Below, in pieces: positions 10,751-23,452 of a DNA stretch of 64,000 nt. Made by a program: the position numbers and the translations under genes. Under the pieces are notes generated by a model. That model had not been told where the DNA came from, searched no databases, and saw only the letters and a list, made by a program, of their open reading frames with translations. The DNA is from Rhodohalobacter sp. SW132 (GTDB taxonomy: Bacteria; Bacteroidota; Rhodothermia; Balneolales; Balneolaceae), in assembly GCF_003390325.1 (NCBI RefSeq), contig NZ_QUOK01000001.1, positions 992,001 to 1,056,000 on the forward strand, given 5' to 3'. Positions within the stretch are counted from its first letter, which is position 1. Each line of letters opens with the position of its first letter.

Positions 10751-10900
10751 CCGACCTTTTGGGTCGGAAAGGATAAAATTCCCCCTTTGAAGGGGGAAGC
10801 GAACAGAGAGAGTTGGGGGATGACTCTCTGAGTTCGGAAGTGCCCATTTGTAGTTGTTAAACATAAAAGGTCATCCCCCATTGCCCCCTTCGAAGGGGGA
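10751..10900. repeat. Palindromic dispersed repeat (CCCCCTTCGAAGGGGG family), long copy
   Basis: After the kinase stop comes a small hairpin CCGACC/GGTCGG (10751-10767) and then a 120-bp element. Its left end (10781-10823) runs from CCCCCTTTGAAGGGGG to GGGGGATGA and its right end (10872-10900) is the inverse, TCATCCCCC to CCCCCTTCGAAGGGGGA. Copies of the same arm occur at 19751-19794 (same strand) and 22211-22255 (inverted). Confidence 0.75.
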
Positions 10901-12425: not shown

Positions 12426-12517
12426 AAAAACGTTATGAAAAAAGGATATGGAAGGTAGCTCAGAATGCCTATTTTTAGAGTAAATCTGTTTCTTTGCTCT
12501 AATTGCTATCTTCCGCT

Positions 12518-13444
12518 ATGAAAATAAATACCTCCCGCCTTTCGGTACTATTGTTTCTTGCTATCTTGTTATCTGCCTGTGGATCAAAGGAGGAAGATCT
12601 TGGCCCGGCGCCGGTATCAGACTCTTATGAGCAGGAATTGCAGCAATGGATTGATGAACGAATAGAAACCCTGAAAGAACCCACAGGTTGGCTTCGGCTT
12701 GCCGGAATGCATATTCTTGAGGAAGGCGAAAACCGGTTTGGAAGCGGGAGCGATCAGGATATTCAATTTCCCGATCGCACGATTGCCGAACACGCAGGTA
12801 TCTTTGATCTGCAAAATGGTCAGGTCACGATGGAAGCGGCAGACGGTGTTGAAATCACAACCGATGGTGAAGCCGTTCAGCAGATGACAATTTATGATGG
12901 CGAGGATACTCCGGAGATTGAGCATGGTTCACTTGTGTGGCATGTGATCGAGCGCCAGGATTTGATTGCAATCCGCCTCTACAACAAAGAGAATGAAAAA
13001 GCTGATCAGTTTGAAGGATTTGACCGCTTTCCCGCCGATACCGAATGGCACCTGAAAGCGAGGTTTGATGAAAACCCCGAAGGAACCACAATATCTGTAA
13101 CCAATGTTTTAGGACAGACCGATGAAGTTTCCAATCCCGGCGCGCTTACTTTCAAAAAAGATGGAGAGTACTACACTATTGAAGCACTCGACAGCGCAAG
13201 CGGACGCCTTTTTTTGATTGTAGGAGATGAAACCAATCGCACCGAAACCTACCAGGCTGGACGGTTTATGTATGTAGATTATCCGGATGAATCGGGGCAT
13301 ACAATTATTGATTTTAACAAAATCTACAACCCGCCGTGTGCGTATAACCTCTATACCACATGCCAGCTGCCACCCGCGTCAAACCGGCTCGACCTTGAAA
13401 TTACGGCCGGCGAATTACGCCCGGTTGACTGGGAAGGATTATAG
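12518..13444 (+). CDS. DUF1684 lipoprotein, first of a tandem pair
   Basis: The ATG at 12518 gives a clean lipoprotein signal (lipobox LSAC); an earlier in-frame start at 12503 only adds five residues. DUF1684 hallmarks: TGWLRLAGMHILEEGEN near the N-terminus, GRFMYVDYPDE, and the C-terminal DFNKIYNPPCAYN / TTCQLPP. Length 308 residues fits the family. Function of DUF1684 proteins is not known. It lies 12 bases before its paralogue at 13457, so the two form a duplicated operon; both probably sit in the periplasm anchored to a membrane. Confidence 0.88.
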   Translation: MKINTSRLSVLLFLAILLSACGSKEEDLGPAPVSDSYEQELQQWIDERIETLKEPTGWLRLAGMHILEEGENRFGSGSDQDIQFPDRTIAEHAGIFDLQNGQVTMEAADGVEITTDGEAVQQMTIYDGEDTPEIEHGSLVWHVIERQDLIAIRLYNKENEKADQFEGFDRFPADTEWHLKARFDENPEGTTISVTNVLGQTDEVSNPGALTFKKDGEYYTIEALDSASGRLFLIVGDETNRTETYQAGRFMYVDYPDESGHTIIDFNKIYNPPCAYNLYTTCQLPPASNRLDLEITAGELRPVDWEGL

Positions 13445-13456
13445 TTTCACAAATTG

Positions 13457-14377
13457 ATGAATAGATTTACACTTATTCCACTTCTTACGGTATTAACCCT
13501 CCTTTTGATTGGCTGCAATCAGCAGGAACTTGGCCCTGAACCGATACCCGATGATTACGATCAGGTTTTTCAGGATTGGCAGGAGCACAGAATTGAGGTT
13601 CTCACCGATACCACCGGCTGGCTGCGTCTGCTCGATCTGGCCTGGCTGGATGAGGGCCAGAATAGTTTTGGGAGCGGAGACGATCGGGATGTGCGGTTTC
13701 CGGAAAACTCCATTGCCGAACATGCCGGTACATTTACTCTGCAAAATGGCGAAGTGTGGATGGATGTTGCTTCAGGTGTGGAAATCGTTCACCGCGAAGA
13801 GCCAGTCGATTCCCTGATGATGTTATCATACGATACTGAAGAAAGAATTCACGCACATCATGGCGAGCTGACCTGGTTTATCGACAGCCGCGGAGATCAG
13901 CGAGGAGTGAAAATTTTCAGTATGGACACACCTGCTGCAGATCAGTTTGAGGGTTTTCCACGATATGATGTGCAGGAGGAGTGGCATCTGCGCGGTCGAT
14001 TTGTGCACCATCCGGAAGAGACGGAGGTTGAGGTTGTTAATGTTTTGGGTGAAACCTCAGGCCGCAGCTCACCGGGGCGGGTTGAATTTCGGGCAGGCGA
14101 TCAGAAGTATTCCATCGATGCATTTGAAGCTTCCAGCGGTCTTTTTCTGATGTTTACCGATCTGACCAATCAGGATGAAACCTATCAGGCCGGGAGATAC
14201 ATGATCGTGGATTTTCCTGATGATGACGGGTTCATTACACTCGATTTTAATAAGGCGTATAATCCGCCGTGTGCATTCAATAAATTTACAACCTGTCAGC
14301 TCCCTCCTCCCCAGAACCGGCTCGATCTTGCTATACCGGCCGGAGAAAAACGCCCCGTTGATTTTGAAGGGATTTGA
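13457..14377 (+). CDS. DUF1684 lipoprotein, second of a tandem pair
   Basis: Start at the ATG at 13457, directly after an in-frame TTG. Lipobox LIGC precedes NQQELGPEP, close to DLGPAP in the upstream paralogue. It keeps the same landmarks: TGWLRLLDLAWLDEGQN, GRYMIVDFPDDDG and NKAYNPPCAFNKFTTCQLPP. The two proteins can be aligned end to end without large gaps, which points to a local tandem duplication followed by divergence. No function is known for the family; the conserved Cys pair near the C-terminus (PPCA and TCQLPP) is kept in both copies and may form a disulfide or bind metal. Confidence 0.88.
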   Translation: MNRFTLIPLLTVLTLLLIGCNQQELGPEPIPDDYDQVFQDWQEHRIEVLTDTTGWLRLLDLAWLDEGQNSFGSGDDRDVRFPENSIAEHAGTFTLQNGEVWMDVASGVEIVHREEPVDSLMMLSYDTEERIHAHHGELTWFIDSRGDQRGVKIFSMDTPAADQFEGFPRYDVQEEWHLRGRFVHHPEETEVEVVNVLGETSGRSSPGRVEFRAGDQKYSIDAFEASSGLFLMFTDLTNQDETYQAGRYMIVDFPDDDGFITLDFNKAYNPPCAFNKFTTCQLPPPQNRLDLAIPAGEKRPVDFEGI

Positions 14378-18498: not shown

Positions 18499-19722
18499 AT
18501 GAAAAATAAAGTAGCGCTATTGGGCTGGAGTCTTCCAGCAATAGAAAGCATGCAAAAAACAGACCGACCCTTTGTTGTGGTTAGTTTTCCTGAATTTGAA
18601 CAGACTGCCAAAGAGAATGATATTGAGTTTGTGGGTTGGAATTTCAAGGAGTGGAATGAGAAATCAAACAGTCTTCAGCTGAAGGAGTTGCTGGATGAAC
18701 ATAATGCAGATTTTGCAGTTCCGCTGTATGAAGAAACCGTGGAGTGGGCCGGCGCTCTGAACTCAATTTGGCGGGATGATCCCCGGCTGCTGAACAGAGC
18801 GTATCTTTTTCGCAACAAAGCCATAATGAAGCGGAAGGCGCTCCTGGCAGGTCTCAGAGTGGGATTGTTTGAAGAGGTTTATACAAAACAGGGAGTTCAC
18901 GATTTTATGAGTCGGCTTAATGAAGCCAACCTTCAGCTTTCCGGTGAGGAAGATGCATGGGTACACCTGAAGCCGTTTAGCGCGGCCGGTACCGTGGGGC
19001 ACAAACTTCTTCGTTCAAAACAGGATATCGAGGATAAAGTGATCGACAAGGATTTTCCCTGCATGGTTGAAAGTCATTTGCCGGGGAAAGAATTCTCCTG
19101 CGAAGCGTTTATTCACAACGGTGAAATCCGGTTTCTGAACATTACTGAATATGTGAAACTGGGATACTCCAACTTTGTGCCTGCCAGTCCCGAGCTGGAA
19201 GCAAAACGTCCTCTCATCCGCGAATCGATGGAGAAACTGGTGAAATCGTTCGGTATTGAATATGGAATGATTCACCCGGAGTGGTTTCTTACGGAAGACA
19301 ATACACTCAGTTTTGGCGAAGTAGCCTGCCGTATTCCCGGGGGACATATTTTTGAGCTGATCGAAAAAGCGCATGGTTTCGATCCGATTCAAGCGCTTGT
19401 GCTGTGCAGTGATCCATCAGCAACAGACGAGGAGATCAAAGACTTCTTCCCCAGCCAGGATATTGATGAAAATCAGGAGTATGCCGGCAGCGTGATGGTA
19501 TATCCCAAGCCAGGGCGAATCACCAAACTGCAGATTCCAGACGAATTGAAGGAAGATTCGTTCTTTGAAGATCATACACTTTACGCACCTTCAGAGCATA
19601 AGGTATCTGACCAGCGGGAAGGATTCGGAAACCATTATGGAACCGTATTTTTTAACGGCAATGATCCCGATCGAATGCGCGAACTTTTGCGCCATTACCA
19701 GGATGTGGATTTTTATGCTTAA
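18499..19722 (+). CDS. ATP-grasp domain ligase
   Basis: A 407-residue cytosolic protein with all parts of an ATP-grasp fold: an N-terminal Rossmann-like domain (MKNKVALLGWS), a central ATP-binding part with HLKPFSAAGTVG and VESHLPGKEFSCEAFI, and the Mg-binding end with HPEWFLTEDN and FGEVACRIPGGHIFELI. Enzymes of this type join a carboxylate to an amine or thiol with ATP. The nearest look-alikes are the L-amino acid ligase / carbamoyl-phosphate-synthase-like ATP-grasp proteins. A C-terminal domain of ~80 residues (from QEYAGSVMVYPKPG) is of the kind seen in that group. It precedes the papain-like protein and the racemase, all on the same strand, which suggests an amide or peptide product. Confidence 0.85.
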   Translation: MKNKVALLGWSLPAIESMQKTDRPFVVVSFPEFEQTAKENDIEFVGWNFKEWNEKSNSLQLKELLDEHNADFAVPLYEETVEWAGALNSIWRDDPRLLNRAYLFRNKAIMKRKALLAGLRVGLFEEVYTKQGVHDFMSRLNEANLQLSGEEDAWVHLKPFSAAGTVGHKLLRSKQDIEDKVIDKDFPCMVESHLPGKEFSCEAFIHNGEIRFLNITEYVKLGYSNFVPASPELEAKRPLIRESMEKLVKSFGIEYGMIHPEWFLTEDNTLSFGEVACRIPGGHIFELIEKAHGFDPIQALVLCSDPSATDEEIKDFFPSQDIDENQEYAGSVMVYPKPGRITKLQIPDELKEDSFFEDHTLYAPSEHKVSDQREGFGNHYGTVFFNGNDPDRMRELLRHYQDVDFYA

Positions 19723-19750: not shown

Positions 19751-19794
19751 CCCCCTTCGAAGGGGGAGAGCGAACGGAGTGAGCAGGGGGATGA
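19751..19794 (+). repeat. CCCCCTTCGAAGGGGG family repeat, left of the 660-residue gene
   Basis: CCCCCTTCGAAGGGGGA at 19751-19767 followed by GAGCGAACGGAGTGAGCAGG and GGGATGA. It is the inverse of the copy at 22211-22255, so the gene at 20063-22045 is framed by an inverted pair about 2.5 kb apart. Confidence 0.75.
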
Positions 19795-20062: not shown

Positions 20063-22045
20063 TTGAAAAAAAACAGTAAACAAATACCCAAGGGCGTACG
20101 AACTAAATTTTATGAAACGCTTGAAAACTTCAGGGAAGCTACACCCCTGTTAGCTGAGGGACACAAAAAGAAACTACTCAGCAGCCTCGATCTTTTGACA
20201 GATACAGAGGATGGTGTTCAGTTTTTATACGATAACATCAGTGACCTTGTCGATGCCGGAATATTTAAAGATACGATGTGGGATGATCCTGCACGTTTGG
20301 TGCCTTCTCTCGTAGGCGGTACGCTGAAAGCAGGGGATCATACTACCATTGTTGAAGTATTAAGTGAGCTGCGAATGCTGGCGATTGCTGAGGGAACCAT
20401 CAAACAGAAAAGTTTCTCTGCTGGTAAAGCCAAAACCTTTCTTGAAGAAGCACTGGTAAATAATATCGACCTTATTTTTCCGGGCGGATCGGAGGAGGAC
20501 AGAAATCTGGATGCCGATACGAGGAAAAAAATAAGTGTACTGTTTCATTATTTAACGGATCAAATCTCCATACAGAAGATTAAGGGTAGGCTTGCAAAAG
20601 AGATTGAGCTGATTTGTGCACAGCGTCCCGTGGTAACAGGCCGTGTTCTGGAGATCATCTCCACGGTGAAAAACGAGATGGAGCTTTCAGCGGAAAGTGA
20701 CGACGACCGGCGACTGAAATACTACGTGAACTCGGTTTACAGCCCTTCTGAAAAAGCGGGAGAGCTCGATCCTGATGAGTACAAATCTTACCTCGAACAG
20801 GTGAAACGAAAAGAGATTGTCCATGAGTGCGAGCAGCTGGCCGATACCATGCATGAAACGGGCCTGGCCACGGAATATCACGCACTATTACTGAACCATG
20901 TGGCGAATGAGGGATCTCTTGTGAAGCTTGCACTGGGTCTTGACAACGTTGGAAAAGCAGAGCTGGACAAACACCGAAAATTTGTGACTGAGTTGATCCA
21001 GAGAGTGATTCATCCCGAAACGGCACGATCCTGCTATGGACTCGCAAAACTTCTGGAACGCTCGCTGTTGTCTCATCAGCCGGTAAAAAGCGGGTTGCAG
21101 CGAATTATGGGAATGGAACTTCATAAAGAAGTTGCGAAAAATATTCGTAAGTCCCGGGAGAACAGTACGCTTGATCCCTCCCATATTTTAACAGCTGAAT
21201 GCCTGGGAATTTTAGGTCAGCCGCTTGGTGTGGGTCAGGGCTGGAACCCGACCTGCCAGTCGGCCCGGGGCATCAGTTTATGGAGCAGTCACGCTCCCGG
21301 AAAACTATTAAGAATGGTGGAAAGTGCAGCGAAATCAAACAGCCTGTCGATGCGGTTCGAGGGGGATGTGATCAAATCGGAAGAGCAAATTCTTGGACTC
21401 GTAAAGGAGCTGGATTACAACCTGGATGCTGTGTCGGTTGTGCTGGTTCCTCATCTGGATAAAATCTACAACGAAATGATGCGGCGTGCGGCAAACCGGG
21501 CGGATGACCCCCACAAATGGGTGAACCCGGCGATGTATGGTCACTGGATCCCTACAGGGTTTATTTCCGCATATGATTACCTGACCAACTCGATCAAAGA
21601 ATATGAAAAATTTATCCGGACGTTTTACATTACACATCACCCCGAATATAATGGAGGCAACGACCTTGCTTATCCAAACCCGGTGGGAATTTTTCTGACG
21701 TCATCCACAGGAAAGCTGATTGGATTTCACGCGGTCTCCATTCTTCGTGTTCGTAAAGTGAAGGGACAGGTGCGGGTGTTTATTCTGAACCCCAACAATG
21801 AGGGGCGCCAGCGGTGGCAGGAGAATATGAGGCCAACCGTTGCCGGGAACGGGGAGCGTGCCGGGGAATCATCCCTGCCGTTTCATCAGTTTGCATCGCG
21901 TCTTTATGCATATCACTTTAACCAGTCTGATATCGACGATCTAAACAAAGTGAGCAAAGAAGAAGTTGATAAAGTAACGGAGCTGGCAAAATCCAGCTGG
22001 GGCGAATCCTATCAGTGGATGGAGCCGGCGGGTATTAAGTTGTGA
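20063..22045 (+). CDS. Large protein with a putative papain-like Cys-His-Asn domain
   Basis: I do not recognise a named family for this 660-residue protein. Its first ~370 residues are mostly helical and charged. The C-terminal part has the geometry of a papain-like (clan CA) cysteine peptidase: Gln392 lies six residues before Cys398 in GQGWNPTCQSARGISLWS, as Gln19 and Cys25 do in papain; His556 is in GFHAVSIL, like the HAV motif after papain's His; Asn576 or Asn578 follows 20-22 residues later in FILNPNNEG. Such a fold may hydrolyse amides or act as a transpeptidase. No signal peptide or membrane segment is seen, so it is likely cytosolic. The start (TTG at 20063) is uncertain by a few codons. 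It lies between the ATP-grasp and racemase genes and is framed by inverted repeats. Confidence 0.72.
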   Translation: MKKNSKQIPKGVRTKFYETLENFREATPLLAEGHKKKLLSSLDLLTDTEDGVQFLYDNISDLVDAGIFKDTMWDDPARLVPSLVGGTLKAGDHTTIVEVLSELRMLAIAEGTIKQKSFSAGKAKTFLEEALVNNIDLIFPGGSEEDRNLDADTRKKISVLFHYLTDQISIQKIKGRLAKEIELICAQRPVVTGRVLEIISTVKNEMELSAESDDDRRLKYYVNSVYSPSEKAGELDPDEYKSYLEQVKRKEIVHECEQLADTMHETGLATEYHALLLNHVANEGSLVKLALGLDNVGKAELDKHRKFVTELIQRVIHPETARSCYGLAKLLERSLLSHQPVKSGLQRIMGMELHKEVAKNIRKSRENSTLDPSHILTAECLGILGQPLGVGQGWNPTCQSARGISLWSSHAPGKLLRMVESAAKSNSLSMRFEGDVIKSEEQILGLVKELDYNLDAVSVVLVPHLDKIYNEMMRRAANRADDPHKWVNPAMYGHWIPTGFISAYDYLTNSIKEYEKFIRTFYITHHPEYNGGNDLAYPNPVGIFLTSSTGKLIGFHAVSILRVRKVKGQVRVFILNPNNEGRQRWQENMRPTVAGNGERAGESSLPFHQFASRLYAYHFNQSDIDDLNKVSKEEVDKVTELAKSSWGESYQWMEPAGIKL

Positions 22046-22052
22046 GATTCTA

Positions 22053-22073
22053 CCCCCCCCCCCCCCCCCCCCC
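22053..22073. repeat. 21-bp poly-C tract
   Basis: A run of 21 C followed directly by seven A, eight bases after the stop of the 660-residue gene. Length-variable tracts can affect transcription or simply be sequencing artefacts; it is outside any reading frame. Confidence 0.85.
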
Positions 22074-22210: not shown

Positions 22211-22255
22211 CATCCCCCGGCTCACTCCGCTCGCTTCCCCCTTCGAAGGGGGACT
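22211..22255 (-). repeat. CCCCCTTCGAAGGGGG family repeat, right of the 660-residue gene
   Basis: CATCCCCC, GGCTCACTCCGCTCGCTT, then CCCCCTTCGAAGGGGGA. This is the inverse of the copy at 19751-19794 with few changes. It lies 40 bases before the racemase start. Confidence 0.75.
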
Positions 22256-22294: not shown

Positions 22295-23452
22295 ATGGTC
22301 CGTCACTCTTCAAGAATCGAACTGAGCCTGGCGGCTCTGAAACAGAATATAAATTTCATACGAAAGAAGATCGGTACGGATGCCATCTTTTCCTCCGTTG
22401 TGAAGGCAGATGCGTTTGGTCACGGGATCGGCACATTTGTACCCATGGCGGAGAAAGCCGGCATCAGGCATTTTTCCGTGGCATCGAGCTACGAGGCGTG
22501 GGAGGTCAGCGAAGCCCGAACGAAAGAGAGCACAATCATGATCATGGGAATTTTGTATGATGATGATATGGAGTGGGTCATCAAAAATGAGGTTGAGTTT
22601 TTTGTGTTTGATCTTCCCAGACTGAAAAAAGCGAAAGCTGCGGCCGAAATGATTGGTAAAAAGGCAATTATTCATCTCGAAGTGGAGACAGGCGGAAACC
22701 GGACCGGTTTGGAGGAATCAAAGCTTGATGAGGCCCTTGAATATATTAAGCAACATTCTGAGTGGATCCGGTTTGAAGGATTTTGCACGCATTATGCTGG
22801 GATTGAGTCTCTTTCAAATCAATTTCGGACCAGGAAGCAGCTGGACAAGTTCGAAAAGCTTTATGAGCGGACAACGCAGAGCGGTATTGAACCAAACCTG
22901 AAACACACAGCCTGTTCAGCCGCAGCTCTTGCTTTCCCGGAAACGGTGATGGACCTCGTACGGATCGGCACAGCACATTACGGTATGTGGCCCAGTCCTG
23001 ATATTTACAACGTACACTTGCAGCAGACAGGTAAAAAAAGGGATGCCCCGTTAAAGCGCGTACTGACCTGGAAGACCGATGTGATGCACATCAAGGAGAT
23101 CAAAAAAGATGAGTTTGTGGGATACGGAACGAGCTACCAGGCTCCCCGCGATATGAAGATTGCCGTGCTGCCGCTGGGCTACAGCAACGGCTACCCGAGA
23201 ACGCTTTCCAACCGTGGAGAAGTGATAATTCGCGGTAAAAAAGCTCCGGTTGTTGGGCTGATCAATATGAATGTGTTTATGGTGGATGTAAGCCACAATG
23301 AAAATGTTGAAGTAGGCGATGAAGTGGTACTGATCGGCCGGCAGAAAAATCATGTGATCAGTATCCGGTCCTTTTCAGAGTTTACCAACGCTATTAACAA
23401 TGAGCTGGTGAGCCGGCTTCCGGATGCAATACCGCGCGTTGCGGTTAAGTGA
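22295..23452 (+). CDS. alr: Alanine racemase-like PLP enzyme
   Basis: A 385-residue fold-type III PLP enzyme. The PLP lysine is Lys37 in VVKADAFGHG; the catalytic tyrosine of the other subunit's C-terminal domain fits Tyr277 in VGYGTSYQAP; VRIGTAHYGMWPS and LINMNVFMVDVS take the places of the family's RPGIALYG and GRICMDQLMVDV motifs. The last one departs from consensus (INMN for ICMD), so substrate may not be alanine. Length is that of a normal Alr. It catalyses L/D interconversion of an amino acid, in the cytosol. It is the last gene of the co-oriented ATP-grasp locus. Whether it is the cell's housekeeping racemase cannot be told from the window. Confidence 0.87.
   Translation: MVRHSSRIELSLAALKQNINFIRKKIGTDAIFSSVVKADAFGHGIGTFVPMAEKAGIRHFSVASSYEAWEVSEARTKESTIMIMGILYDDDMEWVIKNEVEFFVFDLPRLKKAKAAAEMIGKKAIIHLEVETGGNRTGLEESKLDEALEYIKQHSEWIRFEGFCTHYAGIESLSNQFRTRKQLDKFEKLYERTTQSGIEPNLKHTACSAAALAFPETVMDLVRIGTAHYGMWPSPDIYNVHLQQTGKKRDAPLKRVLTWKTDVMHIKEIKKDEFVGYGTSYQAPRDMKIAVLPLGYSNGYPRTLSNRGEVIIRGKKAPVVGLINMNVFMVDVSHNENVEVGDEVVLIGRQKNHVISIRSFSEFTNAINNELVSRLPDAIPRVAVK

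Follow-up and report, generated by a model that had tools for sequence, protein, structure and literature searches.

The butirosin side chain is the work of the ATP-grasp enzyme BtrJ, the fold-III PLP decarboxylase BtrK and the papain-like acyltransferase BtrH. Glutathionylspermidine (Gsp) synthetase/amidase is an ATP-grasp ligase fused to an amidase of the papain superfamily (CHAP), and phytochelatin synthase (C83) is a papain-fold dipeptidyl transpeptidase that acts on a small gamma-peptide. RizA, BL00235 and BacD are ATP-grasp ligases for which we know of no pairing with a papain-fold enzyme. The BtrH_N domain has been assigned to the papain superfamily (PMC10318531), and the same source, which cites Iyer et al. 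(2009), connects the papain-like DUF3335 (PF11814) domains with ATP-grasp amidoligases and GNAT proteins.

The window analysed here, a stretch of 64,000 nucleotides from Rhodohalobacter sp. SW132, carries a three-gene locus in which a protein with a predicted papain fold is flanked by an ATP-grasp ligase and an alanine racemase, all encoded on the + strand. With the butirosin pathway it has three enzyme classes in common, namely an ATP-grasp ligase, a PLP enzyme of alanine-racemase fold and a papain-like acyltransferase; unlike in that pathway, BtrH_N does not occur among the matches listed and no acyl carrier protein was noticed in the loci. Gsp synthetase/amidase is one fused protein, in contrast to the two genes found here, and the families are unrelated. 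Phytochelatin synthase offers a model for the chemistry we propose, although its gene context is different and PF05023 is not among the matches listed for the papain-fold members. The DUF3335 domains, likewise predicted to be papain-like, are linked to GNAT and amidoligase genes, but with a different ligase type, and PF11814 is not among the matches listed for 66 members of the present family. Thus, the logic proposed below has precedents in other families. Likeness to the C1 (cathepsin B, papain) and C2 (calpain core) peptidases lies in the Gln-(6)-Cys...His...Asn order and spacing, the helix and strand positions and the best fold matches, whereas a helical N-terminal domain of 360 residues, an amino-acid ligase as partner and the lack of an apparent secretion signal set the window protein apart from both, as does the lack of detectable sequence or profile similarity.

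Predicted active-site residues and fold

The gene of the papain-fold protein (20063..22045; 660 aa, TTG start) is open and intact by ORF call and translation. Differences from a 91%-identical homologue (L014) are distributed over the three codon positions as 40/28/264, and this excess at third positions shows the gene to be under purifying selection; together with full-length homologues in several phyla, the pattern identifies the frame as a real gene. Homologues are present at 80 loci of public genomes, on a Halomonas megaplasmid whose record is without annotation, and in 11 of 59 related genomes, that of the window included. Full-length ones span the Balneolota, Bacteroidota and Bacillota, as well as a MAG labelled Gemmatimonadota and the Halomonas plasmid. 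Phage records and viral contigs yielded no relatives, and a phage or defence origin was therefore dropped. The locus of one record named Chryseobacterium sp. ISL-80 (L056) is of Bacilli type and falls among the Bacilli in the tree; the record is likely mislabelled or contaminated.

A first-pass annotation had singled out a papain-like arrangement in which Gln392 (21236..21238) lies six residues before Cys398 (21254..21256), His556 (21728..21730) follows 158 residues after the cysteine in an FHAVS stretch, and Asn576 and Asn578 belong to an NPNN motif (residues 576-579; Asn576-Pro577-Asn578 at 21788..21796). This layout is accurate, and the conservation on which that reading hinged is complete: Gln392, Cys398, His556, Asn576 and Asn578 are identical in 91/91 aligned sequences spanning 30-91% identity. 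The same five residues, and with them Pro577 of the motif, are invariant, the five also in a 66-row alignment that takes in a divergent paralogue clade, the nine tandem Bacilli paralogues, which stand apart in the tree with a support of 100/100. Cys398, the predicted nucleophile, is the only invariant one among the five cysteines of the protein. Three histidines are invariant (His484, His556 and His618), so that conservation alone cannot choose between them, and His556 is taken as the predicted catalytic base because the modelled topology favours it. Gln392 is the predicted oxyanion-hole residue.

AlphaFold2 modelled the whole protein with confidence (66 sequences; pLDDT 87.5, pTM 0.82), and did likewise for residues 366-656 alone (pLDDT 87.7, pTM 0.86). 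The annotated long N-terminal helical region is found in the model, where residues 10-364 form helices only; from the model and regional conservation we delimit an all-helical domain of residues 12-365 (20096..21157), followed by the catalytic papain-like domain of residues 366-656 (21158..22030), the latter defined by the stand-alone model, Foldseek and conservation. The catalytic half holds 37 near-invariant positions, against 10 in the N-terminal half, a contrast to be expected if the enzyme acts on a fixed substrate; the mean frequency of the top residue is 0.66 in the catalytic and 0.50 in the N-terminal domain. No signal peptide or transmembrane segment is apparent from hydropathy (maximum KD19 1.3).

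Both models display the papain order and with it the residue layout of the papain superfamily (clan CA; Pfam CL0125): Gln392, then Cys398 at the start of helix 398-410, His556 in strand 552-566, and Asn576, the predicted third triad residue, right after the next strand, 569-575. In a Foldseek search of the catalytic domain against the PDB (350,542 chains), nearly all of the best 50 matches belong to the papain superfamily, headed by cathepsin B (E 3.5e-3, probability 0.96) and including Der p 1, bleomycin hydrolase and PepW; calpain cores align over about 300 columns with a TMq of 0.33-0.38. The statistics of these matches are weak, with E never below 0.001 and TM-scores of 0.4 or less. The whole protein led again to cathepsin B and related proteases, more weakly than the domain alone, and a viral structure library returned nothing useful. 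Of the papain core that had been anticipated, the order of elements and the almost exclusive matching to papain-superfamily structures thus hold, with structural scores that stay weak even at their best. The catalytic domain, as modelled, likely has a papain fold, in a very divergent form.

Could the protein belong to a named family? Neither it nor its profile found a relative in Pfam, NCBIfam, PHROGs, PADLOC or the PDB sequences. PF00112 (C1) and PF00648 (C2) gave no Pfam match, and in direct profile comparison with hhalign, 19 bacterial C1 sequences aligned over 10 columns at a decoy-level score, and calpain C2, represented by a profile of three sequences only, reached prob 0.3 and E 0.19; judged against column-shuffled decoys, these scores lie within the decoy range or barely above it. 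Membership in C1 or C2 was rejected on these grounds. The Pfam models of C39, C58, NlpC/P60, BtrH_N, phytochelatin synthase and DUF3335 do not match the window protein, nor are they in the list for the 66 members, whose 25 Pfam families represent scattered chance matches. As the fold matches are weak and the C1/C2 comparison is empty, we place the protein in a remote papain-like family outside the named ones. The papain-like reading is probably right at the level of the superfamily, and the earlier claim of a new member of a cysteine-peptidase or transpeptidase family survives to that level, without a Pfam or profile match that would tie it to a named family of peptidases. We regard the protein as representing a new family that combines a known fold with a conserved partner gene, and that adds a sizeable unannotated group to the papain-like superfamily. 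The genome separately encodes a calpain-family (PF00648) protein (G000:C4:383551-384465, locus L124), a family with members in just 3 of the 148 genomes sampled.

Gene neighbourhood

The partner ligase (18499..19722; 407 aa) is assigned by Pfam, profile matches, synteny and co-occurrence as an L-amino-acid-ligase-like ATP-grasp protein. It matches PF13535 above cut-off (8.3e-7), and its family profile remotely matches the solved L-amino-acid ligases RizA (4wd3, 3e-11) and BL00235 (3vot, 2.3e-4). It lies directly upstream of the papain-fold gene at all loci that cover this side, and adjoins it in 31/31 Bacilli loci and in Halomonas. Within the 59 related genomes, an orthologous ligase of at least 73% identity is present in 10 of the 11 carriers, the locus of the eleventh being cut at a contig end, and in 0 of the 48 genomes without the papain-fold gene. 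Two of the latter contain short ligase fragments of 53-55% identity (G057:C18:2426-2545 and G017:C3:31987-32076), possibly remnants of a decayed locus. In the literature searched, we found no description of an operon with these parts.

The racemase gene (22295..23452; 385 aa) matches PF01168 (1.2e-44, 153 bits) and PF00842 (2.6e-40, 137 bits), both above cut-off, and is one of three alanine racemase copies in the genome. At 53 loci, of Bacteroidota and Balneolota type, a racemase gene lies downstream of the papain-fold gene; it is found in nearly all Bacteroidota-type loci, often overlapping the end of the papain-fold gene. It occurs in none of the Bacilli loci, and the Gemmatimonadota-labelled and Halomonas loci, both complete, lack it as well. 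Most Bacilli loci (25) have a divergent GNAT gene, and nine have a second papain-fold paralogue. In one Bacillus MAG (L061:2985-5442), the GNAT-ligase-papain cluster is preceded upstream by saccharopine-dehydrogenase-type and Orn/DAP-decarboxylase-type genes, which form a carboxynorspermidine-like pair.

Genes of the arginine pathway, named partly by Pfam and for the remainder read from the sequences, stand near the papain-fold gene at 13 loci in several arrangements. An argB-argD-argC-argJ run leads straight into the ligase (L050); the argB/argD/argC/argJ set lies downstream of the racemase, in full (L035, L037) or in part or for the most part (L030, L048, L051), or is divergent (L045); two loci have a divergent arginine operon of argF' type (L021, L025). 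Among loci with paralogues, argC-argJ-argB is found downstream of the first paralogue (L061), and argC-argJ-argB-argD (L064) or argJ alone (L069) between the two. At most arg-linked loci the module would yield ornithine and has no argF/G/H nearby. The linkage recurs in two phyla, and this gene order makes ornithine or arginine a candidate building block. The genome of the window itself has argB-argC-argJ elsewhere. Across the related genomes, argJ is present in 10/11 carriers of the papain-fold gene versus 19/48 non-carriers, a co-occurrence that is suggestive only, because argJ may simply mark arginine prototrophy. Neither racemase, GNAT nor arg genes are universal: the pathway may vary between lineages, or these genes may be mere neighbours.

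Proposed function and its alternatives

What can be concluded about the role of this protein? The invariant residues, the predicted fold, the strict pairing with a ligase, the dedicated racemase and the repeated arg linkage lead us to think it rather probable that it is a papain-fold acyltransferase or amidase, operating through Cys398, His556, Asn576 and Gln392 and sharing one amino-acid pathway with the adjacent ligase. The pairing with the ligase, along with racemase or ornithine genes, indicates acyl transfer or amide hydrolysis on small molecules. In the scheme we envisage, the papain-fold enzyme would act in the cytosol. The ligase would spend ATP to couple one amino acid to a second, or to an amine, in the manner of L-amino-acid ligases; the acyl group of the resulting amide would pass to Cys398 as an acyl-enzyme, in the C-terminal half (366-656), with His556 as base, Asn576 completing the triad and Gln392 forming the oxyanion hole. 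From there, it would be handed to another amine, in an acyltransfer or transpeptidation, or to water, in a trimming or deprotection step. The all-helical N-terminal half probably aids substrate binding or orientation. In Bacteroidota-type genomes the racemase would supply a D-amino acid building block, and ornithine could be a further one in those lineages that have an argB/C/D/J module attached.

From ligase, racemase and ornithine module together we predict that many marine, saline and soil bacteria make a small amino-acid metabolite that is new, and this may represent an overlooked use of the papain fold in peptide-bond formation. More tentatively, and as a possibility that we would not yet call probable, dipeptide-type ligase and large papain-fold acyltransferase may be a hitherto undescribed two-enzyme core that makes a small peptide or osmolyte containing ornithine and/or a D-amino acid by a non-ribosomal, NRPS-independent route common to Bacteroidota, Balneolota, Bacilli and Halomonas; an osmolyte is considered on account of the saline or marine origin of many hosts.

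Alternatively, the two enzymes could form a reversible pair, the ligase making an amide that the papain-fold enzyme cleaves again in regulation or recycling. Such a logic of ligase and papain-like amidase is known from Gsp synthetase/amidase, and the carboxynorspermidine-type dehydrogenase/decarboxylase-like genes of L061 would be in keeping with it. However, polyamine genes occur at this one locus only, the ligase resembles L-amino-acid ligases and not Gsp synthetase, and the racemase and ornithine genes are better matched by synthesis, which makes a purely hydrolytic partner fairly unlikely.

We are more sceptical still of a cytosolic cysteine peptidase that cuts proteins or peptides next to an independent ligase and racemase. 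Its appeal lies in the papain-like fold and triad, the nearest folds being endopeptidases. Yet the ligase co-occurs strictly across Bacteroidota, Bacilli and Halomonas, neither propeptide nor secretion signal is apparent, and the very high conservation of the active site is typical of a fixed small substrate. Given this gene context, 'peptidase' is the less likely label compared with a biosynthetic acyltransferase or amidase.

A different objection concerns the fold itself, as another cysteine-enzyme fold might produce the residue order by chance. The low TM-scores, E-values above 0.001, the lack of a profile match and the ambiguity among three invariant histidines would all agree with this, but almost every top Foldseek match of the domain belongs to the papain superfamily, the same group leads for the whole protein, and all three residues occupy the secondary-structure positions seen in papain; we judge a chance resemblance very unlikely. 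Least credible of all is a RimK-type protein modification with an amino-acid tag added and removed by the two enzymes, for although pairs of ATP-grasp enzyme and protease exist, such as RimK with RimB (PMC11957791), and a protein partner could dock on the large helical domain, a conserved substrate protein gene is absent from the examined loci, the ligase most resembles dipeptide ligases that use free amino acids, and it is free amino acids that the arg and racemase genes supply.

Other features of the window

Both gaps of the three-gene locus are occupied by the palindrome CCCCCTTCGAAGGGGG (19751-19766 and 22237-22252), which recurs in intergenic gaps at 10781-10796 and 10884-10899. The genome has 23 exact copies, while chance alone would place no copy in the window; it is probably an interspersed palindromic repeat. 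About 21 consecutive C residues (22053-22073) come directly after the papain-fold gene's stop codon and could be a slippage-prone stretch or an assembly feature. Further upstream, 12503-14374 holds two tandem, similar lipoprotein-like genes of about 310 aa each, with a common PVSDSYEQ/PIPDDYDQ...GWLR region.
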